NCBI GenBank assembly: GCA_913061285.1 | Contig: CAJXVR010000042.1 | Location: forward strand, 1 to 32,401 | DNA length: 32,401 nucleotides | Reading direction: 5' to 3' | Source: an uncultured Verrucomicrobiota bacterium | Lineage (GTDB): Bacteria > Verrucomicrobiota > Verrucomicrobiia > Limisphaerales > AAA164-E04 | Shown: one piece after another, positions 3,645 through 32,300 of the stretch | Layout: each line of letters opens with the position of its first letter | Position numbering within the stretch: the first letter of the stretch is position 1 | Notes under the pieces: model-generated | Databases searched by the model: none | The model's input: the letters and a program-made list of their open reading frames with translations, nothing else | What the model was told of the DNA's origin: nothing | Made by a program: the position numbers and the translations under genes

Positions 3645-4232
3645 ATGAACCCAAAAGACGCACGATCTGTTGAGGCATTGACGCGATTGGTAGCCAACGC
3701 TACACGCACAAAGTACTTGTTTTTCTGGGGTCATCGCCCGCGAGTTCCCGATCGCATCGATCACAGTTGTTTCAGCAATTGGTTTCCGGCAAAATTCACC
3801 GTTGACGGGGTCGCGTATCCAACGACCGAGCATTTCATGATGGCTGAAAAGGCCCGTCTATTCGGTGACACAGTCATTTGTGACAAGATAGTCTCAGCCG
3901 AAAACCCAGGGGCCGCAAAAAGCCTGGGCCGGAGAGTGGCCAACTTCGACGAAACAACCTGGGTGGAGAAGAGGTTTGAAATCGTCGCACGAGGAAACGA
4001 GGCGAAGTTTTCCCAGAATGAACCCTTGAAAGACTTTTTAATCGCGTCAGGGTCCAAGGTGCTCGTCGAAGCAAGCCCCACCGATAGGATTTGGGGGATA
4101 GGAATGGCGGCGAATGATGATCGGGCAAAGAGACCTAGTAAATGGAATGGACTCAATCTCTTGGGATTCGCATTAATGGAGGTTCGAGAGCGCTTCCATA
4201 TCCCAAAAACAAAAGAGCCCCCTCAAGAATGA
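3645..4232 (+). CDS. NADAR-family N-glycosidase (DUF1768, YbiA-like)
   Basis: A 195-residue protein of the NADAR/YbiA superfamily. Visible family hallmarks are FFWGHRP near residue 27, the aromatic-rich FSNWFPAKF (about 43-51), YPTTEHFMMAEKA with the expected Glu62-His63, RIWGIGMAANDD starting at Arg148, and WNGLNLLG at 167-174. YbiA-type members hydrolyse the N-glycosidic bond of phosphorylated riboflavin-pathway intermediates. Other NADAR proteins act on ADP-ribose-type substrates. The length is normal for a single-domain enzyme. The gene stands alone between two unrelated genes, with no riboflavin gene, ADP-ribosyltransferase or toxin beside it, so the substrate cannot be assigned from context. 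The ATG at 3645 is preceded by a weak TAAGAA. Confidence 0.93.
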   Translation: MNPKDARSVEALTRLVANATRTKYLFFWGHRPRVPDRIDHSCFSNWFPAKFTVDGVAYPTTEHFMMAEKARLFGDTVICDKIVSAENPGAAKSLGRRVANFDETTWVEKRFEIVARGNEAKFSQNEPLKDFLIASGSKVLVEASPTDRIWGIGMAANDDRAKRPSKWNGLNLLGFALMEVRERFHIPKTKEPPQE

Positions 4233-4518: not shown

Positions 4519-5619
4519 TCAGTACATCGGAGAGTGCTCAAAATCGATTGTCTGACCCCTCTCTAGCTTAGCTTGCCACTCCTCAAGTTGATCCTGACCC
4601 GATTTCCAAATGGATTCACATGCAGTGAAGAATGCCATCGCGACTGCCTTATCACCTTTATCAATAAATCGTCTTACCAAACTCAAGTCAGGCTCATTCG
4701 ACATCTCACTGACAGATGGCGGTAAATCAATAGATTTCATTAATAAGTGTTTCGCTTCATCATATTCGCCCCGATCAAATTTCAGCACTCCCATGACAGT
4801 ATGGCCATGATAATGATTTCGTTGATAACCGAAGGACCCAGCTCCCTCTTGAAGCAACATCGATCTCGCATATCGCTCGGCCTCAGAAAACCGACCACTT
4901 GCAAGGGCTACTTGACAGAGCGAGGGCAAAAGCATTCCCTTCCCGTGCTCCACAGAAAGTCGATACGTCTGCTGGAAGAAATCAAGTGCTTCCGCGGCGC
5001 TCCTAGCCCTCTGTTCACTGCCTGGATCTGCCTTTTTCATTGCTCTTAATCTCAGGCGACCAAGATTATTCGGCCAACGAGGTTCATCGGGTTGCGCCTG
5101 GTAACCCCGTTGGAACAACGCTTCCGCTATCTCCAAATCACTCTCGCGAAGGAACAATCCGGCATACTCCATGATCGCAAGATCCGAAGGATTTCGATCG
5201 ATATGGGCCAGCCACAACTCTTTTCCGCGCTTGAAGAATTCAGGATGTTGCTCTCGGTCAAAGAAGGCATAACTTGATCTGTGCAGTCCGCATCGGGGCG
5301 AGTGTTCGATAAGCCAGATCGCATGTTCCATCCGCCTCTCAAACGCACCAGCAATCTCTCGATACCTCCCATAATAGCCGTACAATTGCAATCTTGCGCT
5401 CTCATCATCAGACTTCTTAGCTAAACCCTGCTCCAAGAGCTCCGCCTGCGCTGAATTCATCTCCGCCCCGTAGCGTTCAATATCGCTGAATCTCTGCCCC
5501 CAAACATCGAGACAGGACCAGCAACCCACCAATCCTAGAATTAGTCGGCCAATCTGATGGCCTCGCCCTAAGACGAAATCCTTCATGCGACTCAACAAAT
5601 CGTTTCTTCGATTATTCAT
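4519..5619 (-). CDS. TPR-like secreted or membrane-tethered protein, downstream paralog
   Basis: A 366-residue alpha-helical repeat protein. A hydrophobic stretch at about residues 25-40 (LILGLVGCWSCLDVWG) could be a signal peptide cleaved before Gln, a membrane anchor, or a lipoprotein signal (LVGC fits a lipobox but the hydrophobic core is short). The rest shows TPR-like helix pairs, for example EIAEALFQRGYQAQPDEPRW and a helix pair around SEAERYARSMLLQEG. It is a paralog of the gene directly upstream: both share a (L)xGYYG motif, KELWL(A/E)H, an (H/C)GHT(V/I)xG motif, AKxHLLxS-like helices and a C-terminal EW...G...FE...M signature. Its ATG directly abuts the upstream stop (TAGATG), so the two are probably translationally coupled. 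It is the last gene of the flotillin/AAA+ operon. A scaffold or partner-recruiting role for the membrane complex is inference. Confidence 0.8.
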   Translation of the reverse strand: MNNRRNDLLSRMKDFVLGRGHQIGRLILGLVGCWSCLDVWGQRFSDIERYGAEMNSAQAELLEQGLAKKSDDESARLQLYGYYGRYREIAGAFERRMEHAIWLIEHSPRCGLHRSSYAFFDREQHPEFFKRGKELWLAHIDRNPSDLAIMEYAGLFLRESDLEIAEALFQRGYQAQPDEPRWPNNLGRLRLRAMKKADPGSEQRARSAAEALDFFQQTYRLSVEHGKGMLLPSLCQVALASGRFSEAERYARSMLLQEGAGSFGYQRNHYHGHTVMGVLKFDRGEYDEAKHLLMKSIDLPPSVSEMSNEPDLSLVRRFIDKGDKAVAMAFFTACESIWKSGQDQLEEWQAKLERGQTIDFEHSPMY

Positions 5620-6759
5620 CTACATCCCCTCAAAATTCGGCACCAAGCCTTGCTCGACAGACTCCAGCCATTCGCCCTTGCGATCCTGCCGCATAGTTAG
5701 ATAAGGCGTCAGCTTCTCAATGAATTCCCGAACACTGTCTAATTCTCGCAGCCCAACAAGGCGCCGGGCCAATCGGTAGTCAGGATTCGACAGACGAACG
5801 AACTTCTTATCGCGAAGCGTGACGGACTCCAAGAGATGTGCTTTTGCGGTATCGAGATCGTTCTCATCCAAAGCGACTAATCCAAAGATGGTATGACCGC
5901 AGTGGATCAGCCGTTCTTGATAAAAGGGTCCTTCACCGGGTTTCACCATCAACGTTGCATACTGTAGAGCTCGTTCTCGATCTCCGGCGAGATACGCGAC
6001 ACGGCCCAACTTCTCAAGCACGAATCGCCCTTTTCGTTCTGGAAGGAGCCGATAGGCTCGCTCAAGGAATTCAAGTTCCAACAAGGTCTCCTGCTGTCTC
6101 GCCTTTAACGACTGTGATGATCGCCTGAGACTGTAACAGCGCGCAAGACGCTGTGCCCACTCTCCGTTTTCGGGATCTTGTTTTTCACCTTCCTTCAAGA
6201 GATCAATGGATAGCTCTCTATCCCCGAAAAGCAGCATTTCGGCAGCATTCGCTCTAATGAGCAAATTATTTGGGGACGTCTCAAGATGCTCGAGCCACAG
6301 CTCCTTAGCCTGAACGTAGGCCGGTAGATGGTGGCTGGGAAACAATCGAACTGCAGAGTCTCGCAAAATCGCGGATTCAGGACGATTTGCAATAAACCAA
6401 AATATATGTCGCCCAAGAGCCGCCTTTGCCGTCTTATCTCGCCAGCCCTGACTGCCGTAATACCCAATCAAGCGAGCTCGCCCTTCCTCACTCAGCGTTC
6501 CCTTAGCCGCACGTTCTTCGAACTTTTTGACAAGGTCGGCAGATAACTTCCTTCCAGTCCGAACAAGGTCTCGTTGCTTCCTCGCGGGAGCATCGTATTC
6601 ACGTCCTGAAGCAGCAAGACGCTGAATACGATCCAATGGTTCCCGGTCACTATAGGACCGTTCCAACAATTGGTCTCGCCTCCACCACGTAATCACCATG
6701 ATCACCACGAAAGGCAATATTCTAATCAGCAATCCCGCAATAGTTTGTTTCTTAGTCAT
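5620..6759 (-). CDS. Membrane-anchored TPR-like protein, upstream paralog
   Basis: A 379-residue protein. Residues about 8-24 (IRILPFVVIMVITWWRR) form one N-terminal transmembrane helix followed by a basic stop-transfer. By the positive-inside rule the orientation is not decisive. The remainder is alpha-helical with TPR-like units, such as DRELSIDLLKEGEKQDPENGEW and a pair around GDRERALQYATLMVKPGEG. The start is well supported by a strong AGAGGAG Shine-Dalgarno 5 nt before the ATG. It starts 30 nt after the AAA+ gene and ends exactly where the next paralog begins. TPR proteins usually serve as docking platforms, so binding to the AAA+ ATPase or flotillin is a reasonable guess. No enzymatic motif is seen. 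Confidence 0.82.
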   Translation of the reverse strand: MTKKQTIAGLLIRILPFVVIMVITWWRRDQLLERSYSDREPLDRIQRLAASGREYDAPARKQRDLVRTGRKLSADLVKKFEERAAKGTLSEEGRARLIGYYGSQGWRDKTAKAALGRHIFWFIANRPESAILRDSAVRLFPSHHLPAYVQAKELWLEHLETSPNNLLIRANAAEMLLFGDRELSIDLLKEGEKQDPENGEWAQRLARCYSLRRSSQSLKARQQETLLELEFLERAYRLLPERKGRFVLEKLGRVAYLAGDRERALQYATLMVKPGEGPFYQERLIHCGHTIFGLVALDENDLDTAKAHLLESVTLRDKKFVRLSNPDYRLARRLVGLRELDSVREFIEKLTPYLTMRQDRKGEWLESVEQGLVPNFEGM

Positions 6760-6789
6760 CTTGACTCCTCTCCCATCGCTTCATCGACC

Positions 6790-9700
6790 TCAGGGGCTTT
6801 TGGGAGACTCTTTCTTCGTTTGAGTTTTTCCGGCCTTAGATCCCTTTTTCTTCTTCGCCTGTTCAAGATACCGTTCATCTTTCTCAATCAGTCGATAAAT
6901 CTCCTTGAGCGTTCGCTTACTAATCGTAATGCCACTCAAGTCAACGCCGTCTTCGTTCTTCGTTTTCGCCGCAGCGTCCGTCTGACTACTCTGCTCCTCC
7001 TCAAAACGACTCAGTATCTCATGCGCCACCGAGAGATCGTCACGTAGATTCACGAGTTCCGATTGCACCTGCTCAACCGAAGCGTCCGATGCTAGCCTCG
7101 TCATCGCCTTAGGAAACTCTTCAACCATGGCGCTCCGAATTCCTTCCAAGGTCGCTCCCAAATCTACCAATACGGAGGCTGTCTCTGAGGCAACACCAGT
7201 ACTCGCCCCAGTCACCACCTCTTTCGCCTTCTGCTTCACAAGCGCGTCGGCGATCCGATTCAGATCTCCTGACACTGGTTTCAAATCGACGATCGGCTTC
7301 GAGCTCAAGGCATCAAAACGCCCTTCTAGCGTTTGCCGAATATCCTGTAGGCCCTCGCTGAATCCCGTCAGTTGAGCCACGACTCGACCCACCGGATCCG
7401 ACGGGTCGCCCTGTCCCATCACTTGGTTGCGTCGGAAAACTTTCTTAATCTCTTCCCATCGTGCCGCTTCTTCCTCCGTTAGCTCGCCAATGAGCTCCCT
7501 AAACTTCAAGAGATTGGCTTCAGCACCGGTCGTAAGCGTCTGCGACTCCCCTTTGTAGTGATCCATGATCAGAGCCTGCACCTCAGCGTCGTTCATGATC
7601 GGCAGTGTCTTCTCCGTCAAACGATTCATGTTTCGATACGATCCCTGCAGCTTGAAGGCGGGCTCCGTTCGGTAAGCATCGTTTTGCCCGGCTGAATGGA
7701 TGTACTCCTGATTCACTCGCATGATCACATCCCGAATCGTTACCAACTTGCCCAACACATTCAGGATTTCATTCACCTCTTCCACCGAATACTCACCCTC
7801 AAACTCGAGCCCATCTCGCGCCTTGGTTTCGGCAATTCGAATGAAGGTGTGAATATCAGCGCGACTCTTCTGGGTTAAAGCAGCCAGCACCGGATTTGAT
7901 GTCAATGCGTTCTCCAGATACGAGGCCTTAAAGGCTGCCTCATTCGATCCGACAATATCACCCAAATTATAAGTATCCGCCCGATTTGCGAGCATGTCCG
8001 GAATTCTAAACTTCTCTCCGCTTTCCGTGTAAGGATTGCCAGCCATGACGACAGCCACCTTCCGACCCCGCAGATCATAGGTCTTTGCTTTCCCTTCCCA
8101 AACGCCCTCAATCCGACGTTGCCCGTCACACAATGAAATGAACTTCTGAAGGAACTCAGGATTACAGTGCTGGATATCATCCAAGTAGATCATGATATTA
8201 TCGCCGAGCTCCAAGGCAAAATTCAACTTCCGCACTTCATCTCGGGCTGCCGCGTTGACAGCCCCCGCCGGATCGAGCGATGTGACATCATGCCCCAATG
8301 CAGGGCCATTGATTTTCACAAAGGTCACTCCCAAGCGATTAGCGACATACTCCATCAAAGTTGTCTTTCCGTATCCTGGAGGACTCACGAGCAAGAGCAG
8401 CCCCATCAAATCCGTACGTTTCGAATCGCCCGCACTCCCAATCTGTTTTGCCAAATTGTCACCAATCAACGGAAGGAAGACCTTGTCGATCAGCTGATTC
8501 CGCACAAACGATGTGAGCACACGAGGTTTGAATTCGTCCAATCGCATCTCTTCTCGAGCCGTCTCAATCAGGCGTTGCTTACAAGCATGAAATCTTTCGA
8601 ACAGAAGCACCTCGCCCTTTTGAAACCTCTTGAGACGACCAACAAATTCCAAGTAGTCCAGTTCGTATCGACCTTCGCGAATTCTCTTATGCGACCCCTT
8701 TAAACCGTCGAGTGATGCTGTCACCCGCTCCTTAGCGATTTGACGCGGGTTGACTTTACCATCAAAGAACGTCATCGCGACCTCATCGATGAATCGAACT
8801 TGCCCCACCTTCTCACGAAACATCACAAAACCTCGCACCCAATCCCGAATCAGTTGAAACTCACGTAAGGAATCCACCTCTAATGCTTTTCTTGCCTCTT
8901 GAAAGGGCCGCTCAAAATGTTCTTTCGCCAAGTGTTGTTCGAATTCCTTCGCAATTTCAGCCCCTTCTTGACTCACGACGAAAGGACCGTTCGAACACAA
9001 TTGAAAATAGAGGTACAGAGCCGCCTCCTCGACACTGTCCGACTCGAAGAGATCCAAGTCCTCGTAGAACCCGGCCAACTCCTGTTCCAAGCGCCCCACA
9101 TATTCCCTCCGAAGCTCGTCCCCTGGAAACGCCCGATTCTTCTGACCTAGCCCTTTTAATTGTGCCTCCCAGAGCTCACGACGCGACTGATCCGATTGAA
9201 CGGACCAATAAAGCCACGCACAGGCTCGCGCCGAAGGCTGAAAGCGACCCAAACCAAGATCGCGCTGCCGATGGGCCAAGGCGTTCAGGATCTGTCCAGC
9301 ATCGATATCATGAACCCCTTTCTGATAGGCCTCCGCATAACGAGGGGCCATAAACGCCTGAACCTGAGCCAATCGCTCGTCCTCTGAAGACTCCAAAAAG
9401 TTCGAAAGGCCGCTCCCATGACTCAGCTCATCAAGAATCAAGAACGCCAAGTATTCCGCCCGATAAACCCGTTCATTCTCCGCTACACATTCCTGACTCC
9501 ACACCGACTCTGTAGCCAATAATTCCGCTTCCTTGATTGGCTGAAAGTAACGCGACCCGGTGAGGTGCAGCTGCATATGTCCCTCACGATGAATCATCGT
9601 GAGATCCAAAGGCTGGATATTCACTGTAAACTGGTGCGCTCCAAACTTGATGACGTTCTTGCCATCGACAAAAAGATCATTCCGATCGCGAAGCTGTCGG

Positions 9701-12225
9701 ACAGCGTCTTCCCGAACGGTCTTTAACTGGCCGGCAAGTTCCTCGGCCCCGACAGATTCATCGAGCTCGCGAAGTTGCTCCGTCACATCACGAACCTTCT
9801 CGATCAACAAATCAGAAGCCATGTAGCCATGAATCTCTTCCAAAGTGCTCATCCCCTCGAGCCGGCTCTTAATCACTTTTAAGATTCGTTCCGCCGAGGT
9901 CATCAAGGCGCCAGCCTTCTTGCTCCTAGCCTCGACTAGCTGAAGTTTCCTCGACTCGAAAGCCTCATAGATCTCAGTCCGCTTTTCAGCCAAAGGAACG
10001 GTGAATTCATCGAAGTCGGAAAAACGCCCCTCCAATTCCTCTATTTGAACACTCAGTTTATTGAGAAACTCATCGCAGCGATCAGGCGAGTCACTGATAT
10101 CAAGGTAGTTGATCACTGACTGTGAAAGCAGCTTGATCTGAGCGTTAAACTGAGCCGCCCCTTCGGAAGCTCCAAGGGTTCGGATACGGACTTTAAGAGC
10201 GGACTTGACCTGGTTTAACGAGGAGTAAATCCCACTGATCTGATCAATCACACGAGTCGTTTCCGTCGCGTCATCGATCCGAAGGTTACTCACGATTTCA
10301 ATGAGCATTTCCAGATCGGCACCCACCTGTTCCACTGATTCCTGAAGCGTCTTAGCCTCGGCTACCTTGATAGTCTCAGGCACGTCCGCTAGTTGCTGTT
10401 CAATCCGCTTACGATAGGGATCAAGCGATTCTGGTTTCAGAAGATACTCAACGCATGCGCCGGACAACACCTCTGTCTTGTCTGCCACTCGGGTCTCTAG
10501 GGCCCCCAGAGCTTCCTGATCCATATAGCGAAGCTCCCGTGCTGTTAGAATCTCGCCACGCAATGTCCGCAATGCCGCCAAGTGAGCCACGAATTCATCA
10601 ATATTCGCCAGCGGACTCTTGCCAATCTCCTGCAATTGCCTCGAGGTTTGCATGTCCAATTCAGCCAAAGCGAGCTCTGACTCCTTGCGCAAACGTCGAA
10701 CCTTCTCAAATTCATCAATCCCTCGACTCGCTGTCTCTCGGATCACATCCAGAGACTCTCTAAGATTGAAGGCTTCTGTCTGATCAATCCAAAAATAGGC
10801 ATCTGCAATATCGCCCGTTGCTCTCACGACATCCACGTACAGCCCCGAATAAATATCATCCTTACGAACAAGATTTAGAATATCGTGGCATTCAGCCATA
10901 CAGCGGACCACATCGCGATTGCCAATCTTGTAGAGAAACGATTCCTTATTAGCCTGCTTCTCATGCTCTGGAGCGACATACGGCGTTTGCCAGATTTGGA
11001 TCGTGTGATGGCGTTGTGCCTCCTCTTCACATTTGAAGTAAGCCAACTCTCCATTATCAAACATTGAGAAACCATTGCAAAGAATGGGATTCTCCACAGC
11101 TTGATTTATCAAATTGTATGACATCATCACATAGTCCCCAGACATGCGATTGTAGAATACATAGAGGTAGTCTTCGCCATTGTTGGAAGCTACCAGTCGC
11201 TCGAAAAGCATCTCCGTTCGATTAGTATCAAATCGCTTTAGCAAGCCCGTTTGAAGATAATAACCGTCGGAAAAGATGATCCCCTGATCCTCCGGCAGAC
11301 GGACACAGGAGTGCTCAAGTGAGTCGATCTTCTCGAGTGTTTTCAACTTATCATTGAACACAAAAAATCGAAACCGTTTCTCCTGGAAAGGTCGAATCTT
11401 CAAGAGGGTGAGACACCCAATATCAGCATAGAATATTTCCGCATCATCCAAAGTTTGGTCTGGATGATCCACGGCTTCAGAGTAAATTCCCTTCCCGCTT
11501 TCGGTGTTGTCTTCCACCTTCGCAGTGAACATTCCATCGGCACACGAAACGAAGAGACGATCCTGGATTGAGATATGTGGATGCACGCCATCTCGGTGGA
11601 GATCCCGATGAGTTCGTTGCCAATCACATTCGTATTGTTTCGGAAACGAGAACTCATGATCACTACGATTATCGACGTAGACCAAGGCTCCATCTTTCAC
11701 CAACCACTTGAAGGTTTTGACATCTGAAACGAGTTTCCCAACTCGAAAAACCATGAACAAGAACGGACCGACGAACGAGAATTTTACGAATTTCGTATTC
11801 TTATAGTATTTGTAAAGACTCTTGAAATCATCCTCAAATGTCGCCTCCAACAAGAATTCGGCCTCGGCCGCATGAAAACCCTCGTCACGATACTCATAGA
11901 TTGCAAATACATCAGAGACGCAGATCTCAGACTTCAGCCCAAAATGCACATTGTAACCAAAGAGAAAACGATTCCCTCCCACAGGCACCATATCACGAGG
12001 AACACAGTTGTGTTCCGTTGTGATCCGTTCTGCCCTAAGCAAGGCTGTCGGGACAGAGCCAAACACCTCACGACGCAGTTGATTCAACTGCCCTAGGCGC
12101 CTTTCTAGTTCTGCTCCCTGAGTTTCCAGCCGGGACCGGATAATCTCATAGCTTCCTCCCTCAAGTCCCTGATCCTGGCTGGGATCATTGGTTTCGACGG
12201 GAGATTCTATCTCCTGATCAGACAT
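6790..12225 (-). CDS. Giant AAA+ ATPase, DUF3686 / 'DNA repair ATPase' type
   Basis: An 1811-residue protein. I chose the ATG at 12225, although GTG 12228 is also in frame. The layout is: a short N-terminal coiled coil (about 25-60); a beta-rich region of about 350 residues with repeated propeller-like strands (the DUF3686 part); long coiled coils (about 480-870); an all-alpha middle region; an AAA+ core; and a C-terminal coiled coil ending in a Lys-rich tail. In the AAA+ core the Walker A is SPPGYGKTT at about 1282-1290, the Walker B IMIYLDD has its acidic pair at Asp1350-Asp1351, and the sensor-type AGNPYTESG is followed by the probable arginine finger in PDMLANRAD. The 'DNA repair' name for this family is a legacy label; nothing in the protein is DNA-specific. 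Its place between a flotillin and TPR proteins points to membrane-associated remodelling of proteins. The spacer from the flotillin gene is 30 nt. Confidence 0.9.
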   Translation of the reverse strand: MSDQEIESPVETNDPSQDQGLEGGSYEIIRSRLETQGAELERRLGQLNQLRREVFGSVPTALLRAERITTEHNCVPRDMVPVGGNRFLFGYNVHFGLKSEICVSDVFAIYEYRDEGFHAAEAEFLLEATFEDDFKSLYKYYKNTKFVKFSFVGPFLFMVFRVGKLVSDVKTFKWLVKDGALVYVDNRSDHEFSFPKQYECDWQRTHRDLHRDGVHPHISIQDRLFVSCADGMFTAKVEDNTESGKGIYSEAVDHPDQTLDDAEIFYADIGCLTLLKIRPFQEKRFRFFVFNDKLKTLEKIDSLEHSCVRLPEDQGIIFSDGYYLQTGLLKRFDTNRTEMLFERLVASNNGEDYLYVFYNRMSGDYVMMSYNLINQAVENPILCNGFSMFDNGELAYFKCEEEAQRHHTIQIWQTPYVAPEHEKQANKESFLYKIGNRDVVRCMAECHDILNLVRKDDIYSGLYVDVVRATGDIADAYFWIDQTEAFNLRESLDVIRETASRGIDEFEKVRRLRKESELALAELDMQTSRQLQEIGKSPLANIDEFVAHLAALRTLRGEILTARELRYMDQEALGALETRVADKTEVLSGACVEYLLKPESLDPYRKRIEQQLADVPETIKVAEAKTLQESVEQVGADLEMLIEIVSNLRIDDATETTRVIDQISGIYSSLNQVKSALKVRIRTLGASEGAAQFNAQIKLLSQSVINYLDISDSPDRCDEFLNKLSVQIEELEGRFSDFDEFTVPLAEKRTEIYEAFESRKLQLVEARSKKAGALMTSAERILKVIKSRLEGMSTLEEIHGYMASDLLIEKVRDVTEQLRELDESVGAEELAGQLKTVREDAVRQLRDRNDLFVDGKNVIKFGAHQFTVNIQPLDLTMIHREGHMQLHLTGSRYFQPIKEAELLATESVWSQECVAENERVYRAEYLAFLILDELSHGSGLSNFLESSEDERLAQVQAFMAPRYAEAYQKGVHDIDAGQILNALAHRQRDLGLGRFQPSARACAWLYWSVQSDQSRRELWEAQLKGLGQKNRAFPGDELRREYVGRLEQELAGFYEDLDLFESDSVEEAALYLYFQLCSNGPFVVSQEGAEIAKEFEQHLAKEHFERPFQEARKALEVDSLREFQLIRDWVRGFVMFREKVGQVRFIDEVAMTFFDGKVNPRQIAKERVTASLDGLKGSHKRIREGRYELDYLEFVGRLKRFQKGEVLLFERFHACKQRLIETAREEMRLDEFKPRVLTSFVRNQLIDKVFLPLIGDNLAKQIGSAGDSKRTDLMGLLLLVSPPGYGKTTLMEYVANRLGVTFVKINGPALGHDVTSLDPAGAVNAAARDEVRKLNFALELGDNIMIYLDDIQHCNPEFLQKFISLCDGQRRIEGVWEGKAKTYDLRGRKVAVVMAGNPYTESGEKFRIPDMLANRADTYNLGDIVGSNEAAFKASYLENALTSNPVLAALTQKSRADIHTFIRIAETKARDGLEFEGEYSVEEVNEILNVLGKLVTIRDVIMRVNQEYIHSAGQNDAYRTEPAFKLQGSYRNMNRLTEKTLPIMNDAEVQALIMDHYKGESQTLTTGAEANLLKFRELIGELTEEEAARWEEIKKVFRRNQVMGQGDPSDPVGRVVAQLTGFSEGLQDIRQTLEGRFDALSSKPIVDLKPVSGDLNRIADALVKQKAKEVVTGASTGVASETASVLVDLGATLEGIRSAMVEEFPKAMTRLASDASVEQVQSELVNLRDDLSVAHEILSRFEEEQSSQTDAAAKTKNEDGVDLSGITISKRTLKEIYRLIEKDERYLEQAKKKKGSKAGKTQTKKESPKSP

Positions 12226-12255
12226 CACCGTTGCTTTCTTGCGTTGTTCAAGCCG

Positions 12256-14346
12256 CTACGCCTTGGACACTGGACTTTGCGGCCCAAGAACATCAGCGGC
12301 GAGCGTCTTGCCAAGGTCCGTGTTCTCTACCAATTGCAGTGCCCGTTGCATGGTGGATTTCGCACTGCCGTCTTTCGTTTCCTGAATCATCTTCAATAAG
12401 AGTGCCGAGATGGAAGTATTCTTCAAATCCTCACTCGACATCCCAAACTGCTGAACCCAGTTCTTGAACTGCGACTTGAAATACTCCGGATCTCCATTGA
12501 AGAAGGTTTCCTTCACGTCTGACAAGACTCGGCTATTCTCAGTCGTCCGATCTATCGCCTTTCCCTGAGTGATGGAAGAAACGATCTTATCGAAGAATGT
12601 CACGTCACCACCCACAATATCGATGCGGGCACTCTCCAAGGCAGCACCAACCACCTTAGCCTGTTCCTCGGCAATTCCTTGCTGAACTTGAATGGAAGCC
12701 AATTCAATTTCTTTGTCCTTATTTAAGCGCAGCTTAAACTCCTCGTGCTCTCGACCGACGCCGTCGAACTCTTTCATCGCTTCAGCCTTTTCAGTGATCC
12801 CCTTGGCCTCGGCAGCAAACTTCAATTGCATCACGTTGGCCTCGGCTTCACCCTGTTCTTGAATGGCTGCTGCCCGGGCCTGAGTGACCGACACATCTGC
12901 CATGCCTACGGCAGCCTCATTTGCAGTCTTCGCCGCCGCCCGGAGCTTCACAGCATTGGACTCCTTCTCTGCTGCTTTCTCCTCGGCATCGGCCAGAATA
13001 ACGACTTCTTCTGCTTTGAGATCGCTTGCTTCTCGAGCAGCTTGTGCAGCCACGAGTTGCTGATATTTCTCCTCCTCTGCCTTGAGTTCGGCTGCCTTCT
13101 TGGCGGCCTCAGCAGCCTTGATATCTCTCACCAATGCCTCTTCAGCGGTCATCTCGGCGCGAGTGACTACCACCTTCTTTTCTCGATCTGCCGAGGCGAA
13201 CGCTTCAACATCCTTCATCCGTTCTTGCTCAGCAACCACAGTCTTCTCTAGCTCAACCCGCTCGCGAATGACTTCTTGGATATTCTTCTTTTCGGTCTCA
13301 ACGGTTTTTTCTTTTTCAATCTGAGCCAAGGTCACTAGGCGCTCACGTTCGGTCGCTTCCAAGAGCCGGTCCTTCTCCAAACGCTCCGTTTCAATGGCTT
13401 CCGTCCGTTCTTTGTTCTTCTGAGCGACGATGATCTGTCGGTTCTTGTTCTCTTCGGAAATCCCGATCTCTTGATCAGAGGCAATTCGAGCCTGTTCGGC
13501 TTTCAAGCGCTCCTCCTCGGATACCTTCAACGCCTCAGCTTCCTCTCGAGCTTTGATATTGGCGATCTCCCGTTTTTGTCGTTCCTCCGTTTCGGCAAGC
13601 TGCCGCTCCATCTCCAGAATAGCTTCCCGGGCTTCAACATTCTCCTTGGTGATCGTCTTGTCCTTATTCTGCTGGATCTCGTTGGAGAGAATCTTCTGTT
13701 CTGCCGTCAATCCGATAATCTTCTTGATACCTTCGGCATCCAGAATGTTGTTCTCATCCAGTTTGGCGAGTGGCGTCTGTTCCAAATAGTCAATCGCGGC
13801 ATCATCCAGAACGAATCCATTGAGATCGGTTCCGACAACCTTGAGAATCTCTTCCTTGAAACGTTCCCGTTCGCCGTAAAGATCCGTAAAATCAAACTGC
13901 TTTCCAGCCGTCTTCAAGGCCTCAGAAAACTTGGCGTCAAATAGCTCGACCAACGCCTGCTGATCCGAAGCCCGGACACAACCGATCGATTGAGCGACCC
14001 TCAAGACATCATCCGAGGTCTTATTCACCCGCACAAAGAAAACGACCTTGATATCCGCACGGATATTATCGCGACAAACCAGCCCGTCTTCGCCGTGTCG
14101 ATAGATCTCGATCCGCTTCACCGAAATATCCATCTCTTCACACCGATGAATCACGGGAACCACGACAATGCCACTAAAGGACACCTTCGTACCTCCGATC
14201 CCATTTCGAACAATCGCCTTGCCCTGTTCAATCTTGCGGTAACACTTCACCACCAAGATCGTCACTCCGATGGCAACGACCAGACTGGCAATCAAGCCTG
14301 TCGCCCCCACCAATTGAGGGAACCCTAGTCCAAAAAACTCATTCAT
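12256..14346 (-). CDS. yqiK: Flotillin-like SPFH/Band-7 protein (YqiK type)
   Basis: A 696-residue flotillin. One N-terminal membrane helix (about residues 12-36) is followed by an SPFH/Band-7 domain (about 37-200, including ISVKRIEIYRHGEDGLVCRD and DIKVVFFVRVN). Then comes a very long Glu/Ala/Lys-rich coiled coil (about 205-480) with EAxA-type repeats, and a C-terminal segment (about 560-680) that resembles the oligomerising tail of YqiK proteins. Flotillins build large rings or scaffolds in the membrane and organise ordered lipid domains. The start is supported by AGAGGA about 5 nt upstream, placed inside the end of the preceding gene: the two genes are separated by 1 nt. That order (OB-fold protein, then flotillin) is the conserved YqiJ-YqiK arrangement. 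The gene symbol follows the E. coli family name and does not imply proven orthology. Confidence 0.95.
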   Translation of the reverse strand: MNEFFGLGFPQLVGATGLIASLVVAIGVTILVVKCYRKIEQGKAIVRNGIGGTKVSFSGIVVVPVIHRCEEMDISVKRIEIYRHGEDGLVCRDNIRADIKVVFFVRVNKTSDDVLRVAQSIGCVRASDQQALVELFDAKFSEALKTAGKQFDFTDLYGERERFKEEILKVVGTDLNGFVLDDAAIDYLEQTPLAKLDENNILDAEGIKKIIGLTAEQKILSNEIQQNKDKTITKENVEAREAILEMERQLAETEERQKREIANIKAREEAEALKVSEEERLKAEQARIASDQEIGISEENKNRQIIVAQKNKERTEAIETERLEKDRLLEATERERLVTLAQIEKEKTVETEKKNIQEVIRERVELEKTVVAEQERMKDVEAFASADREKKVVVTRAEMTAEEALVRDIKAAEAAKKAAELKAEEEKYQQLVAAQAAREASDLKAEEVVILADAEEKAAEKESNAVKLRAAAKTANEAAVGMADVSVTQARAAAIQEQGEAEANVMQLKFAAEAKGITEKAEAMKEFDGVGREHEEFKLRLNKDKEIELASIQVQQGIAEEQAKVVGAALESARIDIVGGDVTFFDKIVSSITQGKAIDRTTENSRVLSDVKETFFNGDPEYFKSQFKNWVQQFGMSSEDLKNTSISALLLKMIQETKDGSAKSTMQRALQLVENTDLGKTLAADVLGPQSPVSKA

Positions 14347-14347
14347 A

Positions 14348-14977
14348 TCAGTCCTCTAATTTCTTAATTAAGTATGTGTTATTCTCCTTGTTCTCGAAAA
14401 AAATCACGGCAGAATCTCCCTTCACCAAAGAGCGAGCACCCTCTCCGACCCGAACATTGATCTTGAGAGGCGCCCCATGCCGCTCAATCTCTGCTTGGCC
14501 AGAATCGCCATCTACCGTCAAGGTCACCACACGACAGATCTGCCCCAACATGGCTACAGAAGAGGGTTCCTCCCTTAGCTTTATCCGTCGTAGTATCCGA
14601 AAGATCGGAAAGACAATCGCCTTCGTCAACGCAACGCTAATCACGGCATTAGGAACAAAAAGAGCTCCGGCCATCAGCCAAGAATGCCCGGGATTAAAGT
14701 AGTAATTCAGCAGCATGGCACCCATCCACAAGAAAACCGTCAGGAGACTTGCTATTGCCATGAACGGCCCTTCATCGCAGTGAAAAAAATGGGCCAGAGC
14801 ATACCCCAATTTTCCAACACCGCCCTCGGCACTGGCATCCAAATCCAGGTCCAGATCAAACGCATCAGAATCCAATGCACCAAGGCACACTAGTCCCCAG
14901 TAAAGCACGACGAACCCAAGCAGACCGGTCAAAGGTAGATTAACAAAGGCTACCGCCTCAGCCACGAACTCAGTCAT
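14348..14977 (-). CDS. yqiJ: YqiJ/NfeD-like membrane protein with OB-fold tail
   Basis: A 209-residue protein with about three transmembrane helices (around 10-33, 69-91 and 98-124) and a soluble C-terminal OB-fold-like domain (about 140-209, with the strands MLGQICRVVTLTVDGDSGQ and KGDSAVIFFENKENNTY). After helix 1 there is a striking acidic repeat, DAFDLDLDLDASAE, of a kind seen in this family. NfeD-like proteins are encoded next to flotillins and are thought to act with them in membrane domain maintenance. A good AGGAG at 14984-14988 (minus strand) supports the start. It is the first gene of the tightly packed operon that continues with the flotillin, the AAA+ ATPase and two TPR genes. Confidence 0.92.
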   Translation of the reverse strand: MTEFVAEAVAFVNLPLTGLLGFVVLYWGLVCLGALDSDAFDLDLDLDASAEGGVGKLGYALAHFFHCDEGPFMAIASLLTVFLWMGAMLLNYYFNPGHSWLMAGALFVPNAVISVALTKAIVFPIFRILRRIKLREEPSSVAMLGQICRVVTLTVDGDSGQAEIERHGAPLKINVRVGEGARSLVKGDSAVIFFENKENNTYLIKKLED

Positions 14978-15724: not shown

Positions 15725-15789
15725 TCGCAAATCCAAAACCGCCCCTCTATTCTCACTCCCTCAGGAAGCAATGCACCAACTTATTCTTA

Positions 15790-15799
15790 GGGACAGGCT
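15790..15799 (+). repeat. REP-like half-site upstream of the transposase gene
   Basis: GGGACAGGCT lies 46 nt before the preferred start of the RAYT gene. Its inverse recurs just downstream of the gene (17006 and 17130), so the gene is bracketed by inverted copies of the same word. Confidence 0.6.
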
Positions 15800-15845
15800 A
15801 CGATTTCTCTTGAACCCATTTCTCAGTCTTATTACTTCTCTACTG

Positions 15846-16817
15846 ATGCGTATTGCTCGAATCAAACCTAAAGGGCGTGATATTGTGTATCACTGCGTTT
15901 CACGAATCGTAGGCGGGCAATTTCTACTGGGGAATGTAGAAAAGGAATCCTTTCGCCGAATGATGTGGACACAGGCTGAGTTTTGCGGGGTTGAGATCGT
16001 CGCTTACTGTCTCATGTCCAACCATGTTCATCTTCTAGTAAGAGTGCCGAAATCAACCCAGATTGACGACCGCTCCCTCCTGAACCGAGTGACTCATCTC
16101 TACGGAGCTAAAAGCACATTGACCAAACGTCTCAAGAACTTACTCGAAACGACCAAGTCTATTCCTTCGGGGCAAAGGAACGCCCTACTTGCAAGAATGG
16201 GAGACATCTCTGTGTTCAATAAAGAATTAAAGCAGCGTTTCAGCACCTGGTACAACAGACGGAATGGGCGATTCGGAACACTTTGGGCCGAACGTTTCCG
16301 AAGCACAATCGTCGAGGGAGTTGCGGAGACGATGCGAATAGTTGCGGCCTATATCGATCTGAACCCGGTCCGAGCTGGGCTCGTAACAGATCCCAAAGAC
16401 TATCGATTTTGCAGCTATGCAGAGGCACTTTCAGGCGGTCAAAAAAGCCAAAACGCCATCATGGGTTTCTATCCCTCGGGGACATGGCAAAGGATTTCCA
16501 GTTCCTATCGAGAATACCTCTTCGTCAAAGGAGGCCTCCCCGGGCATTCTAAGAAGATAGCGATGGAACGAGGGGCAATCCTCAGAGAGATCAAAGCCGG
16601 CGCTAGACTGAGTGCGGCCCAATTGTTGCGTCTTAAGATTCGCTATTTTTCAGACGGCCTTGCCCTTGGATCAACAAGCTATATCAACAAACTTTTCGAC
16701 GAGAACCGAAATCGGTTTGGACCTCGAAAGCGTACTGGCGCCCATTCCCTACCTCCGGCCCTGGAACGGTTAAATGTAACGACTCTCAATAAATTGAAGA
16801 ACGAGCCGATCAGTTAA
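15846..16817 (+). CDS. REP-associated tyrosine transposase (RAYT, Y1/HUH family)
   Basis: A 323-residue single-strand transposase/nuclease. It has the HUH motif in CLMSNHVHLLV (His60 and His62) and the catalytic tyrosine Tyr136 in FSTWYNRRNGRFGTLW, followed by the family's AERFRS and YIDLNPVRAGLV blocks. The Y1 domain spans about residues 5-205. The C-terminal 120 residues, basic and helical, are typical of the longer RAYTs of PVC bacteria. I prefer the ATG at 15846, where homology-like sequence starts (MRIARIKPKGRDIVYHC). The ATG at 15771 has a better AGGA, but it would place a REP-like half-site inside the coding region. RAYTs cleave and mobilise REP palindromes rather than their own gene. 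The flanking GGGACAGGCT copies fit that. All key residues are present, so it may be active. Confidence 0.94.
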   Translation: MRIARIKPKGRDIVYHCVSRIVGGQFLLGNVEKESFRRMMWTQAEFCGVEIVAYCLMSNHVHLLVRVPKSTQIDDRSLLNRVTHLYGAKSTLTKRLKNLLETTKSIPSGQRNALLARMGDISVFNKELKQRFSTWYNRRNGRFGTLWAERFRSTIVEGVAETMRIVAAYIDLNPVRAGLVTDPKDYRFCSYAEALSGGQKSQNAIMGFYPSGTWQRISSSYREYLFVKGGLPGHSKKIAMERGAILREIKAGARLSAAQLLRLKIRYFSDGLALGSTSYINKLFDENRNRFGPRKRTGAHSLPPALERLNVTTLNKLKNEPIS

Positions 16818-25543: not shown

Positions 25544-26329
25544 CTAGACCTCTCCTTCCCTCTTCGTGGCACCGTTGGTGCGGCGGCGCCTGAGAGCAAA
25601 CCACCCCAAGCCAAGGGCCACGACCAGGGCGTGATGAGGTTCAGGAACAGGCGAAACCGTGAGGCCTAAGCTCCAGTCATCCAGTCTCAGCGTTCCGCCG
25701 GACGACAGGTCAGCGACGAACAAACTCCAGTTTCCATTTGGAACCTGCCCGTCAAAACTACTCAAGAACGCGGAGCGATTATCCGTATCCAGGACATTGG
25801 CGGGATCGACGTTGCGTCCGTCCGGTGCCCAGGTGCCGGTGAGAGCATCCCCTGCGTTAAACCCACCTCCTAGGGTCATCTCATAGAGATGGACATCCCC
25901 GTTGGTCGCCGCGTCATCAAAGGTGACATTCGAGAAGCCCGAGCCATCGGTCCCAATTGAATTCGAAGCCGATCTCCCTGGCCGATTCAACAGCACCGCA
26001 AAACCATTGATCGTGTCATGAGTCAGATAGGCATAGATATCGCCATTGAACCCTGCGCCACCAAGGGCGGACAAATTCAGCGTGACCGTCACATCGGAAA
26101 TCAAATCCGTCTGACCCGAAACCGCAATGCCCGACGTGATGCCGTTGGCATCATTGTCAGGGATCGCTGTATTGAGTGTGCCACTGTTAAACGAAAGCAG
26201 GGCAGCATTTCCCTTCGCCCCTCCCAGTAAGAATACTATTACGAGAGGCCAGAATCCCACTCGTTGCGCCCAGCACCGAGCAGTAAGATACCGAAGTCTC
26301 CCTGGCCCGTTCGTCTTCATGCTATTCAT
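25544..26329 (-). CDS. PEP-CTERM protein with P-domain (proprotein convertase-like)
   Basis: A 261-residue exported protein. Signal peptide core is VGFWPLVIVFLLGGAKGNA. Residues about 45-225 form a P-domain-type jelly roll: an early SGIAVSGQTDLISDVTV strand pair, GDIYAYLTHD, then GNWSLFVADLSSGGTLRLDDWSL, the typical 'W.L...D...D.G.L..W.L' ending. The C-terminus is VPEP, a hydrophobic helix (ALVVALGLGWFALRRRR) and a basic tail, a textbook PEP-CTERM signal. There is no protease domain, so this is a surface-anchored P-domain by itself. Its ATG at 26329 overlaps the end of the giant LamG gene (stop 26322-26324), and a second ATG lies at 26320, so translation is probably coupled to that gene. Confidence 0.9.
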   Translation of the reverse strand: MNSMKTNGPGRLRYLTARCWAQRVGFWPLVIVFLLGGAKGNAALLSFNSGTLNTAIPDNDANGITSGIAVSGQTDLISDVTVTLNLSALGGAGFNGDIYAYLTHDTINGFAVLLNRPGRSASNSIGTDGSGFSNVTFDDAATNGDVHLYEMTLGGGFNAGDALTGTWAPDGRNVDPANVLDTDNRSAFLSSFDGQVPNGNWSLFVADLSSGGTLRLDDWSLGLTVSPVPEPHHALVVALGLGWFALRRRRTNGATKREGEV

Positions 26330-29300
26330 TGACTTCTACCGTTCGATAATACTTGGACCCCGATTGGCTGGCCGCGTCTCCATCCGTAAAGCGAATCCCC
26401 CCGCGTACCCCAGCCGTCACCGTCACACTCTCATCGGTCCAAACGATGGTTCCATCGAGACTGGTAGTGGATTGTACTTTATACTTCCTTCCGGGTATGC
26501 CCCGAAACTCGAGCTCGATATCATTGTTCTTCACAGACATGCGGATAGTGTTTCGAGTCTGGGAATTCGGCACATTCACAGAGATTGTCACGGTGGCGGT
26601 ATCTGTATGGGCGTTACCATCACTAATCGTGTATGAAAAAGTATCTGGAGTAGCCGGGGCAGCTTCAGCCGGGGTATAGAGAATCCAGCGTCCCCCGCTC
26701 AAGAGAGACAAAGTGGAACCATTCGCACTACTGGCTGGGAGTTGATTGGACACAAAGCTGATAGTATCCCCATCTGCATCCGAATCATTCCCCAGCAGAT
26801 CCGCCACTAACAACTTAACCACCCCAGTTCCAGGAGCACGTGTTACCACATCATCCACCGCCGTCGGTGGCACATTGTTACGCAGACCGAGAGTGAAGAG
26901 ATAGTTGTCTTGAACCATCTCCGCAGGGAGGTTGTTGAACGTCACCGTATCGTTGGCTAAGGAACTCCCAGCCAAGACGCTCCATTCACCCCCTCCTACG
27001 TCTCCTGGATTAGGAGCCGTAGCGGTGAGGAGGAGGAAGTTAGCGGCCGTATCCGCCCCTGCAGGGACAGTAAGCGAAGATAGGTCGAAACTTAAATCAA
27101 CAGGCCCCACTTCTCCCGTTTCCTGGACATGCCATCCATCCGACAATGCCTGATCGACTCCACTTGGCAAGGATCCACCAAACACTGAACTACCATTGAA
27201 TGCGGGCGGTCCACCGATTTGTCTCGCCCATAGTAGAAACTCCCGGTCCTCCATTCCACTACCGTTCGATTCTATGCTTACGATGGCACTAGAGGCGGAA
27301 CTTTGCGAACGGAATTGGTTGAGACCAGAAGCATCGTCTCGTCCGATCCCAGCAATGTTTCCAGTAAAATTCACCAAACTGTTTAGAGGGCGCTCCCAGA
27401 TGACTGTACCAGACGAATCACTGTAACGCATAGTATTCAATCCCCGTTCGGGTATAGGCACCCCATATTTAATCGCCAAATAAGACCATACACGCTCCGC
27501 GGTGGGGGATAGCGAGTGCTGCTCACTCACTCCGGTTATCTTATCCCGGTAAGCTATAAGCTCGCTAATTGCTCCTTTGAGATTCTGGCCATTACTATAC
27601 CCCACAGGCGGAGCCGCGATCAAAAAAGTGCTGACACTTGGTACGGGAAACCCGGTACCGAAATTAAGTTGGTGCTCGTCTCCATAAATAGAATTCTCAC
27701 TATTGTAATAAGCTCTCAGCAAATGATCCATCATCATGACTGATACAGAGTCATCGTTGTAGAGACCAACAATAGTGTTTAGTCCGTTGCCCAGGTCCGA
27801 ATTAACGAATTGATTCACCGAACCGGGACTAATTGTAGCCAGGCTCGAATGTGAGGGCGTATCTGGACTTATCAGTGTAACAGGGCTACCGATCACCGCA
27901 CCCGTAAGCTCAAACTTGCCAACAATAAAGAGTGAGAACTCCGAACTTCCCGCCAGTCCATTTAAAGTCACAGAAAGCGAATCATCCACTCCATCAAAGT
28001 AAACGGACGGATTCGAATTAATATTATCCGTAGGATTATTCCTATAGGTCGGAGGATGGGTCATTTCAGTCGCGTCATTCCCCAGTCCACTTTGATCACG
28101 CCAGGTCATCAGAGGAGCGCCGTCACTCGCCACCCCGCTCTCAGAGTCCGCCTTTAGCCACAGTTCGATTCCCGTGATGATTCCCGCTGGCCCGTTCAAA
28201 TTGCCAAGCCCTAGCGTGAAATAGCGTTTTCCGTCGAAGAGATCTTGATCGATTCCAGAGAAGCTAGCCACATTCCCACTGAAGGACGATGCCCGAACCT
28301 GCCCGGCACCTGAAGCAAAGACACCATCGTCATCGTGGATGAGAATGAATTGTTCGGGCGAGCTATACATAGAGGGGAGCGAAATCCCACTCAGATCGAA
28401 GCTCAGATCGACACTGCCAACCTCCCCGGTCTCATTCGCCACCCATACTTGATCCAAGCGTTGATCAACACCTGCCGGGATATCATTGGTTGAGAAGTTG
28501 GTGCCGGCTCCATTACTGCTCCAAACTAAGAAATTGCCATCGCCAATCGCCCCTCCATTCTTTGAGACCGTAAGAATCGCATCTGAAGCGACGCTCTTGG
28601 ATTGAGTCTGATTTAACCCTGATTTGTCATCCTGACCGATCGCGGCAACCCGGTTGCTAAAGCTCGCCCCGACATCCGCCGGATCCCATAGCACGTCACC
28701 CGAGGCGTTGACATACTGTTGAGCCCCATTATTTTGACCAAGCGTTAAACCGTACTTCATCGCTAGGTAAGAAACAACCTGCTGATTCTGTCCAGACGAT
28801 ATTCCCCCATCAAATACAATCAGCTCACTGAGACTACCGTTGAAATACTCCGCGGCCGAACGGCCGAGATAATAGGCACTGGCATCAGGAAAGGTTCCGC
28901 TGTCGTCGTCGGTAGCCATGGTATTTTGGCCATTCCGTTCTTCCTGTTCGGCCCCATCCGTACCAAACAGTAGAAACGGCGTGACCCCAGGATCATCAAA
29001 CAGCAAGGGCGTCATCGTAGAGAAGACGCCTCCTCCGGTATTCGCTCGAAAAGCGAAGGTCTGCGCCTGGTCATAGCCAAAGAAAAATCGATCCGGCGAG
29101 AGATCCGAGCCCAAGATGGCGTTCACATCACCATCCCCTCGAGTCCCGACAGCATAGATCGCGAATTGAGTCCTGCCTTCTAAGACCGCCAAGGACGTCG
29201 ACAACACATCGTCGGAACCGTCAAACGAAACAGTCGGGTTAAAGTTGATGTTATCCGTAGCATTGTCACGATACGTCGGAGGATTCGTCATTGCCGTCGC

Positions 29301-32300
29301 ATGGTTTCCATACCAACTTTGATCCGTCCACGAACTTAAACTGCTCCCATCGGCAAGGGCAGGTGTGACTGCATCCGCCTTCAACCAGAGGACAAGATCA
29401 TTAACCAGACCGCCCGGAGACACCTTGCCACCACCCCCAAAGGCACACCCTAAAGTAAAATATGTGCCCTGCTCCAAGACCGATTCAGGCACGTCGGTGA
29501 AACTTACGACTCGGCCTGTGAGACTGCTCGCAACGAGGCTACTTGCACCACTGGCAAAGGTGCCATCGGCATCGGTCAGCAAGTAAAAATTACTTGCCTG
29601 AGCCGCCCCCCCAGACAAGGGCACACCGGTCAAATCGAAGCTCACATCGACCGAGCCTACCTCGCCCGTCTCACTCACAAACCAACCTCGCCTCAGTCGA
29701 GAATCGATCCCGCTTGGCACATCCTGATCAGAGAAGGTCCTGTCACCGCCGTCATGACTCCACAGAAGAAACTCCCCATCGCTCATGCCTCCGCCACTCG
29801 TTTCAACGGCAAGCACACTCCCGTTGTTGCTACTCTGAGATCGCATTTGCATCAAGCCGGAGCGCTCGTCTATCCCGACTCCAGAGATGTCATTATTGTA
29901 ACCGCTCGGTACGCCATCCGCATCCCAAACCACGATATCGGCCGAGTTCACATAGTCCTGCCCCGCTCCGCCTTGGTCTAGTGAAATGCCGTACTTAAGC
30001 GCTAGGTAGCTCTTTATTTTCCCTCGATCCGTGGCATCGAGCTCTCGATCAAACACGATGATCTCGTTAATCCCACCATTGTAGAACCGGTTCTCTCCTC
30101 GGCCGACATAGTAGGTCCCAGCATCCGGAAATACCCCATTACTGTTCAAGCTATTCACCGTAGCTGTCCCGTTCCGTTCTTCTCGACCTTCACTGTTGAT
30201 TCCCTCCAAGAGGAACGGCGTATGGGTGGGACTATCAAAGCCAAACGGCGACGCGGCAAACTGGATCGAGGCTCCCGCACTCAAGGCTCGAAACCCGAAA
30301 TCCTGGCTACCGTGATAGCCAAAGAAGAAGTTTTCTTTGGCTAAATCCGACCCCAATACATCATTGATCCCTTCATCACGTCTTACTCCAACTGCGAAGA
30401 CGCTGTAGTTACTGGCTCCTTCCAGACTCTCCAAAGTGGTGATGAGTTGGTCGTCTGCGCCATCGAAAAGCAGCGTTGGGTATTGATTGACGGTATTGGC
30501 TGCATCGTTCTTGAACAGGGGTGGATTTGTTGCTTCCTGCGAGTGCCGCAAGTGACCACTTTGATCATTCCACTGGGTAACGCCCACACCGTCCGTCGTC
30601 GTCGACGTTCCAGAATCCGCCCGAAGCCAAACTTGGATGCCATTCTCCACCCCTCCTGGGGCCGGTTGGGGACGGACACCCAAGGTAAAATACCGGCCGT
30701 GGTCGAGAACGTCCTCGTGCACGCCCGTGAAAGTCACCACGCTCCCCGCCACTGAACTCGCCACCAAGGTCTGGGCATCGCTAGAAAAGTCCCCATCTGA
30801 ATCAGTCAACAAGAAGAACTCTCCTACCAAATCAACCCCTAGCGGCATAGACACTCCCGTGAGATCAAAACTGATATCGACCGAGCCAACCTCTCCTACT
30901 TCCTGGATCAGCCATTCTCGTCCCAAACGCTGATCAACATTTGAAGGCACCTCATTCATTTGAAATCCCTTTGCGGCTCCATCGTTACTCCAGAAAAGGA
31001 ACTCGCCACTCTCCATCCCTCCGCCCGCCTCCGCGATTGTAATGGTGCTGCCGGGACTGCGATGCCTGGACCTCGTTTGATCAAGAGGAAATCCATCGTC
31101 TTGGCCGATCGCTGTGATCTGACTATGGTATGAAGAGTTTAGACTATTGTCCCAAATGATAGCTTCCGTAGAATCGCGGTAGCTCCCTGTAGTCTGAAAC
31201 CTACTATGAACTGTTCTTCTAATGCCATATTTTATCGACAAATATGAATCAATTGAGACCGCTTCTTCATGGGTCCGCACACCTGCATAAATTATCAACT
31301 CACTCAGCCGACCAGAGAAATAGTTGGCATTCTCACGCCCCAGGTAATAGCTAGATGCATCGGGCAGATGCATCACAGCCGCAGCTTGGTCAGTGGTAGA
31401 AAAATAACTGTCGCCTACAGTTTCGGCGATTGCATCTCCAAGGATTTCAAGCTTAAACGGAGTCTGAGATGAGGCGTCAAATGCCATCACGGATGGCAAA
31501 ACCCTAGATTGGGACAGAGTGCTGACAAATTCATCCTGATCATTATAGCCATAGAATAGTTCGGTATCGGCCAAATCCGATCCGATGATCGGATTCACCT
31601 CCGAATCCCCACGAACTCCGACAGCGATAATATTAAAGCCTTGACCTTCCAGGTCACCTTTCAGGTGATCGAGGGAAATATTCAAATGGTCATCAATGCC
31701 GTCAAATTCAAGAGTGGGATTAAAATTAATGTGGTCCGTAGCATTGTTGCGGTACACGGGAGGATTAATACTCCCTCCAGCATTGACGTCTTGACCACTC
31801 TGATCCGTCCAAGTACCTATAGGAACTCCATCGACTGGCATCGAGACGCCTGCATCTGCTCTCAACCAGAGTTGGATTCCAGACTCCACTCCCGCCGGTC
31901 CATTCAAGGCCCTCACCCCAAGCGTGAAGTAGGTACTATCGTTCAAGACACGATCTCCCACTCGACTAAAAGTGATCACCGTTCCATCCCAGCTCGACAC
32001 TCGGACACTCGTGGAGCCACTACTAAAATCGCCATCACCATCGGTGAGCAAAAAGAATTCGGTTGCTAGATCGACCCCCATCGGAAGGCTTATTCCCGTC
32101 AGGTCGAAACTGATATCGACCAACCCATGCGCACTCGTCCTTTGCACTAACCATTCACGTTCCAAGCGTTGATTGATGCCCGATGGTAGCTCGCTGGTTA
32201 CAAAACTTCTCGTTCCCCCATTGTGGCTCCAGAACAGAAATGCTCCGTCAAGAAAATCGTTGGCGTTAGACGCTATGGTCACGATACTTAGGGGATTCGT

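Follow-up and report, generated by a model that had tools for sequence, protein, structure and literature searches.

A known flotillin, YqiJ-type and AAA+ ATPase cassette followed by two TPR genes in an uncultured Verrucomicrobiota bacterium

The stretch of DNA analysed here (contig CAJXVR010000042.1 of assembly GCA_913061285.1, 32,401 nucleotides (nt), hereafter the window) comes from an uncultured Verrucomicrobiota bacterium and carries five tightly packed genes on its minus strand, encoding a YqiJ-type membrane protein, a divergent flotillin, a giant AAA+ ATPase and two tetratricopeptide-repeat (TPR) proteins that we call TPR-B and TPR-A (Table 1). The first three belong to a known cassette that is conserved across the loci that we compared, and the two TPR genes at its 3' end are absent from the other loci compared. 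We give about even weight to the reading that the five products form an inner-membrane remodelling machine with extracytoplasmic TPR receptors. In the open reading frames (ORFs) the spacers are, in order, 1 nt (YqiJ-type gene to flotillin), 30 nt (flotillin to ATPase, or 27 nt with a GTG start), 30 nt (ATPase to TPR-B) and 0 nt (TPR-B to TPR-A), and GGAGAGGAG precedes TPR-B in the sequence read at both TPR junctions. This packing agrees with that given in an earlier reading of the same DNA (the initial annotation).

The trio is already known, as our survey agrees with the work of Ravi et al. 2024 (PMC11237479). Their account of the operon gives a YqiJ/YuaF protein, a band-7/coiled-coil/flotillin protein and a novel AAA+ ATPase with a coiled coil and a beta-propeller, with or without a CesT/Tir-PspA dyad, and abbreviated forms without PspA are described there as well. 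The window matches this operon in its three proteins and in their domain make-up; it differs in the addition of two TPR paralogues and in having no CesT/Tir-PspA dyad, and section 19 of that paper mentions no TPR gene. The name DUF3686 was not found in the literature searched, and within those same searches no TPR gene was found described together with the trio.

Our survey comprised 80 loci, the best 80 of 570 confirmed, together with 20 stretches from related genomes. The ATPase is present in 101 sources including the window, of which 97 were left after dropping four with identical ATPases, and genes were called by a greedy choice of long ORFs with no gene finder. At the 75 loci with at least 4.5 kb upstream (window included), a flotillin gene lies on the same strand within four called genes upstream in 70; one of the five loci without a near flotillin, L085, has it further upstream. 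A recognisable YqiJ-type gene occurs within six called genes in 50 of the 75. PspA-type genes were found in the same stretch at 10/97 loci with one seed and at two more with another (L107, one of these, without a Pfam check), and CesT-type genes at 9/97, the window not among them. Pfam confirmed both CesT and PspA at L088, and at L084 PspA scored 33.8 bits against a cut-off of 33.9. A protein of about 275 residues is encoded in the same stretch as the ATPase gene at 16/97 loci (for example L112:12267-13100), at four of them no more than 60 nt behind it, and the one example tested had no Pfam match. The genes around the core differ by lineage (CesT/PspA-type genes, the ~275-residue protein, the TPR pair), a pattern that suggests one core machine with exchangeable clients or sensors.

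The ATPase has 1811 residues from its ATG, or 1812 if it starts at a GTG three bases earlier, and Pfam recognises in it DUF3686 (E 8.9e-175), DUF7902 and an AAA domain (about residues 1277-1401), so that the 1811-residue DUF3686 AAA+ protein of the initial annotation is borne out. GYGKT (Walker A), DD (Walker B) and AGN are invariant in 80/80 aligned ATPases, one from the window and 79 from loci L024-L103. An AlphaFold2 (AF2) model of residues 12-590, with a pLDDT of 88.1, has a long N-terminal helix followed by strands, and the 50 PDB matches listed for it are largely beta-propeller proteins with low TM-scores. Among these are the clathrin terminal domain, CyRPA, paraoxonase and prolyl oligopeptidases, all of which we take to be beta-propellers, and the N-terminal DUF3686 part is predicted from the model to be beta-propeller-like. 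A PDB search with the sequence returned matches to the AAA core only, among 60 listed. No transmembrane segment was found in the ATPase by a hydrophobicity scan, and no protease domain by Pfam.

Neither the flotillin nor the YqiJ-type protein of the window has a direct Pfam or NCBIfam match, so both were identified through alignments of their relatives, compared with E. coli YqiK and YqiJ. The flotillin alignment (55 of 78 collected sequences) matched E. coli YqiK in hhalign with a probability of 100% and 29% identity over 407 columns, and the YqiJ-type alignment (35 of 55 collected) matched E. coli YqiJ with a probability of 97.3% and 21% identity over 177 columns; both identities had been proposed from the letters of the sequence, and these profile comparisons uphold them. 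Pfam finds YqiJ_N in 27 and NfeD in four of the 35 aligned YqiJ-type proteins. The window protein has hydrophobic segments in three regions, which fits the three-transmembrane YqiJ/YuaF type of the Ravi operon, and its C-terminal part is predicted to be OB/NfeD-like. The flotillin has a transmembrane region by hydrophobicity, and, by gene order, the YqiJ-type gene 1 nt upstream supplies the NfeD2-type partner expected of an SPFH2/p-flotillin. The Band_7 model is silent on the window protein and matched 0/55 members of the aligned flotillin clade despite the YqiK alignment; the clade escapes the usual model, and surveys based on Band_7 will undercount it. A PDB sequence search with the flotillin gave no match.

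The first two genes also resemble characterised pairs. E. coli yqiJ-yqiK and S. oneidensis SO1376-SO1377 have, like the window, a YqiJ/DUF1449-type gene followed by a COG2268 flotillin (PMC2636767, PMC1468410). In an SO1377 knock-out iron metabolism, sensitivity to H2O2 and mutation rate were all changed, and the passages of PMC1468410 on this flotillin mention neither a TPR nor an ATPase gene in that operon. The annotation of E. coli K-12 has neither an ATPase nor a TPR gene behind yqiK, unlike the window, and the window flotillin, with 696 residues against 553 in E. coli YqiK, misses Pfam Band_7. In the HflK/HflC-FtsH system an SPFH scaffold works with an AAA+ motor, FtsH, which is a protease. 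Its pairing of an SPFH membrane scaffold with an AAA+ motor is like that of the cassette; the window ATPase differs from FtsH in having no Pfam protease domain and in carrying a beta-propeller-like part. The HflK/HflC-FtsH system is mentioned in PMC13086221.

TPR-A is a paralogue of TPR-B (27% identity, E 4e-32), and each of the two has a single hydrophobic segment in its N-terminal part. TPR_14 scores above its cut-off in TPR-A, and TPR-B has only TPR_19, below the cut-off. The TPR-B model (pLDDT 85.7) is a helical solenoid that matches TPR structures in Foldseek, and the twin TPR-like membrane proteins of the initial annotation are well founded. The C-terminal pattern which it saw as shared by the two is present in the pair, but W364 and F376 of TPR-B are invariant in 13/13 aligned sequences, and this comparison makes the W...G...F pattern a property of a wider family. 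At least nine proteins, its own cluster included, are relatives of TPR-B with E<=0.001 among 7996 candidates scored. No TPR-B match was found in plasmids, and no relative of the TPR-B alignment was confirmed in viral contigs. In a TPR tree of 17 rows, a member of a second pair of the same genome (C71A) groups with TPR-A at a fork support of 87/90, which is below the starred level, and C71A and C71B sit on long branches.

Several features of this family bear on the side of the membrane that the TPR domains face. The TPR-B model has a single hydrophobic helix at residues 7-38, and the lipobox-like LVGC of TPR-A lies, by eye, near the LAGC of P0013 in the alignment. Of 15 family sequences, 12 have a hydrophobic segment at the N-terminus or close to it, the exceptions being P0007, P0009 and the second C11 piece. 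This set counts one broken copy as two pieces and includes both TPR-B and the nearly identical P0002. By eye, the TPR copies of L154, L176, L177, L178 and L188 begin with sequences that resemble signal peptides. In an order-level relative (G578) the TPR domain is fused C-terminally to a BlaR1-type M56 protein (L189:3415-5538) that adjoins a penicillinase-repressor-type gene (L189:3023-3418), and BlaR1 carries its extracellular sensor in the C-terminal part, where this fusion has the TPR domain. A 752-residue frame of another genome (L163:1119-3377, G084) joins an extracytoplasmic function (ECF) sigma factor, several membrane segments and a TPR C-terminal half, and its product is predicted to be a membrane-tethered sigma factor with the TPR part outside. 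Because of the signal-peptide-like starts and the BlaR1-type receptor fusion, the TPR domains of the family are predicted to be extracytoplasmic. These fusions and the stand-alone copies share the TPR profile and the C-terminal W...G...F with the window pair, and in the stretches read none has a flotillin/AAA+ cassette next to it (a search with the ATPase and the flotillin for L176-L178, L188 and L189, reading by eye for L153-L166).

In the mechanism that we propose, the flotillin would oligomerise to build a scaffold in the inner membrane, with the YqiJ-type protein stabilising it, and the ATPase would dock on the cytoplasmic face of this scaffold via the propeller or a coiled coil and spend ATP on extracting, assembling or disassembling membrane proteins. 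On the opposite side of the membrane, TPR-B as a membrane-anchored protein and TPR-A as a lipoprotein-like one would present their solenoids; there they might bind a periplasmic ligand or a protein of the envelope and relay substrates or a signal to the scaffold via membrane proteins, bypassing direct contact with the ATPase. A stronger form of this proposal, that the flotillin/AAA+ machine acquired a dedicated extracytoplasmic sensor arm in which the two TPR receptors couple periplasmic signals or cargo to the ATP-driven scaffold, is tentative and on balance rather doubtful. If it were true, the TPR proteins of that arm would come from a family whose members also serve as the outer domain of BlaR1-type and sigma-factor-linked receptors. 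A natural variant with additional receptor-like genes would also help to find out what the scaffold binds and on which side of the membrane it does so. The initial annotation had likewise pictured a membrane-microdomain machine, which fits the flotillin, OB and AAA+ proteins, and had singled out the TPR pair as a less described addition; the latter holds in that no other compared locus has it, but the trio itself had already been published (PMC11237479).

Other observations weigh against a five-part machine. No recognisable YqiJ-type gene was found at 25/75 loci. Two TPR profiles, run against ORFs of at least 60 residues in all 101 sources, matched only the two genes of the window and found relatives at 0/96 other non-redundant ATPase loci; since the sequence extends 2.5 kb or more beyond the ATPase gene on its downstream side at only 70/97 loci (the window among them), the fair count is 0/69 others. 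The survey of DUF3686 neighbourhoods that the initial annotation called for supports its flotillin (70/75 loci) and not its TPR genes, and the latter are, by this comparison, not part of the conserved set. Of 146 related genomes, 23 carry DUF3686 and 20 match the TPR profile, many of the latter in its C-terminal half only; three (G000, G052 and G118) have both, where 23 x 20 / 146 = 3.2 would be expected, which is about independence; G052 and G118 carry them on different contigs. Six genomes (G077, G150, G164, G194, G575, G578) have TPR relatives and no DUF3686 match, in a search whose query matches the window genome and whose own controls were silent, and of these G575 is only 66% and G578 83% complete. 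The charges around the TPR-B helix leave its predicted orientation unsettled. Scans for promoters (9 found, 8.4 expected) and terminators (11 found, 10.8 expected) are at chance level and speak neither for nor against a single transcript.

Alternatively, the TPR pair is a passenger: this genome would have an enlarged family of envelope TPR genes, one more locus of which came to lie behind the ATPase gene and is transcribed with it but has no functional tie to it. We regard this as a serious rival with a substantial, though less than even, chance of being right. The window genome contains a second tightly packed TPR pair of 377 and about 362 residues (the latter from a later start) on C71, an apparently broken copy in two overlapping frames of 187 and 211 residues on C11 (L154:9014-10058) and a shorter family protein on C26, none beside a trio, and it holds one DUF3686 and one flotillin of the clade, both in the window. 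At a same-genus locus (L024) homology to the window spans the YqiJ-type gene to the ATPase and ends there, and a genome-level association is absent. What speaks against a passenger is the close packing on one strand, and signs of linkage in other assemblies. For relatives of TPR-A (P0011, 88% identity) and TPR-B (P0002, 89%) and for a YqiJ-type fragment (P0022, 85% over 66% of the query) the longest contig on record measures 9,765,388 bp in each case, and for a TPR-B relative only 47% identical (P0004) and a YqiJ-type protein (P0016, 73%) it measures 48,182 bp. The equal sizes suggest the same contigs, of 9.77 Mb and 48 kb respectively, although they show neither adjacency nor an ATPase gene, and P0003 (on a 5.6-kb contig) and P0005, two of the four TPR-B relatives of at least 44% identity among the matches listed, share no contig size with the 11 YqiJ-type matches. 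Because TPR-B and the YqiJ-type protein share a contig size in two other assemblies, their linkage is probably not an accident of one assembly. The 48-kb contig is not recorded for any TPR-A relative among the matches listed, and of the two TPR genes TPR-B may thus have been linked to the cassette for longer. TPR-B itself was matched in 7/384 genomes drawn from the class and P0004 in 4/320 genomes of the order, the window genome (G000) included in both. Unlinked TPR genes, which the initial annotation had regarded as refuting its operon, do exist in the window genome and in genomes without a detected DUF3686, but the shared contig sizes keep that refutation incomplete.

Three further explanations are less probable. 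The locus might be a PspA/ESCRT-like envelope-stress (phage shock protein) system, given the PspA-type and CesT-type genes at other loci and the link drawn in PMC11237479; this is improbable, with no PspA_IM30 match in the window assembly (88.94% complete; the search matched 9/14 control genomes) and no CesT/Tir partner beside the window trio in a CesT seed search. Only marginally less probable is that the TPR proteins are cytoplasmic-side adaptors handing substrates to the AAA+ motor, as the initial annotation had it. TPR solenoids commonly bind protein partners, and the operon-like packing would suit such a role; the N-terminal hydrophobic segments of most family members and the receptor-like fusions, which by the topology of BlaR1 put the TPR domain outside, argue against it. 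Flotillins of the YqiK type face the cytoplasm, and because the TPR domains are predicted to lie outside and the ATPase has no transmembrane segment, direct contact between TPR proteins and ATPase is unlikely. Least of all do we favour an anti-phage defence system, which is very improbable: the ATPase is large and multidomain, and a nearby convergent gene encodes a NADAR-domain protein that PADLOC matches, yet among the five proteins PADLOC matched the ATPase alone, with weak matches confined to the AAA core, and no ATPase relative was confirmed in viral contigs.

Table 1. Genes of the cassette and flanking genes in the window, with the basis of each assignment.
Feature	Coordinates	Strand	Basis
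YqiJ-type membrane protein, 209 residues	14348..14977	-	hhalign to E. coli YqiJ, YqiJ_N/NfeD matches in relatives, hydrophobic segments
Divergent YqiK-type flotillin, 696 residues, hydrophobic region 15-39 at N-terminus	12256..14346	-	hhalign to E. coli YqiK
AAA+ ATPase, 1811 residues; DUF3686, DUF7902, AAA	6790..12225	-	Pfam, AF2 model, invariant motifs
TPR-B, 379 residues, N-terminal hydrophobic helix and TPR solenoid	5620..6759	-	TPR_19 below cut-off, model, Foldseek
TPR-A, 366 residues, TPR-B paralogue, N-terminal hydrophobic segment with lipobox-like LVGC	4519..5619	-	TPR_14, alignment, eye
NADAR-domain gene	3645-4232	+	PADLOC match
IS200-like Y1 transposase-domain protein	15771-16817	+	
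Big_9/cadherin-like domain protein	26322-32381	-	

The NADAR-domain gene, of the riboflavin intermediates N-glycosidase family, ends 286 nt from the TPR-A stop. The Big_9/cadherin-like protein has at least 2019 residues and is followed by two ORFs without a Pfam match, and the IS200-like gene lies upstream of the cassette.

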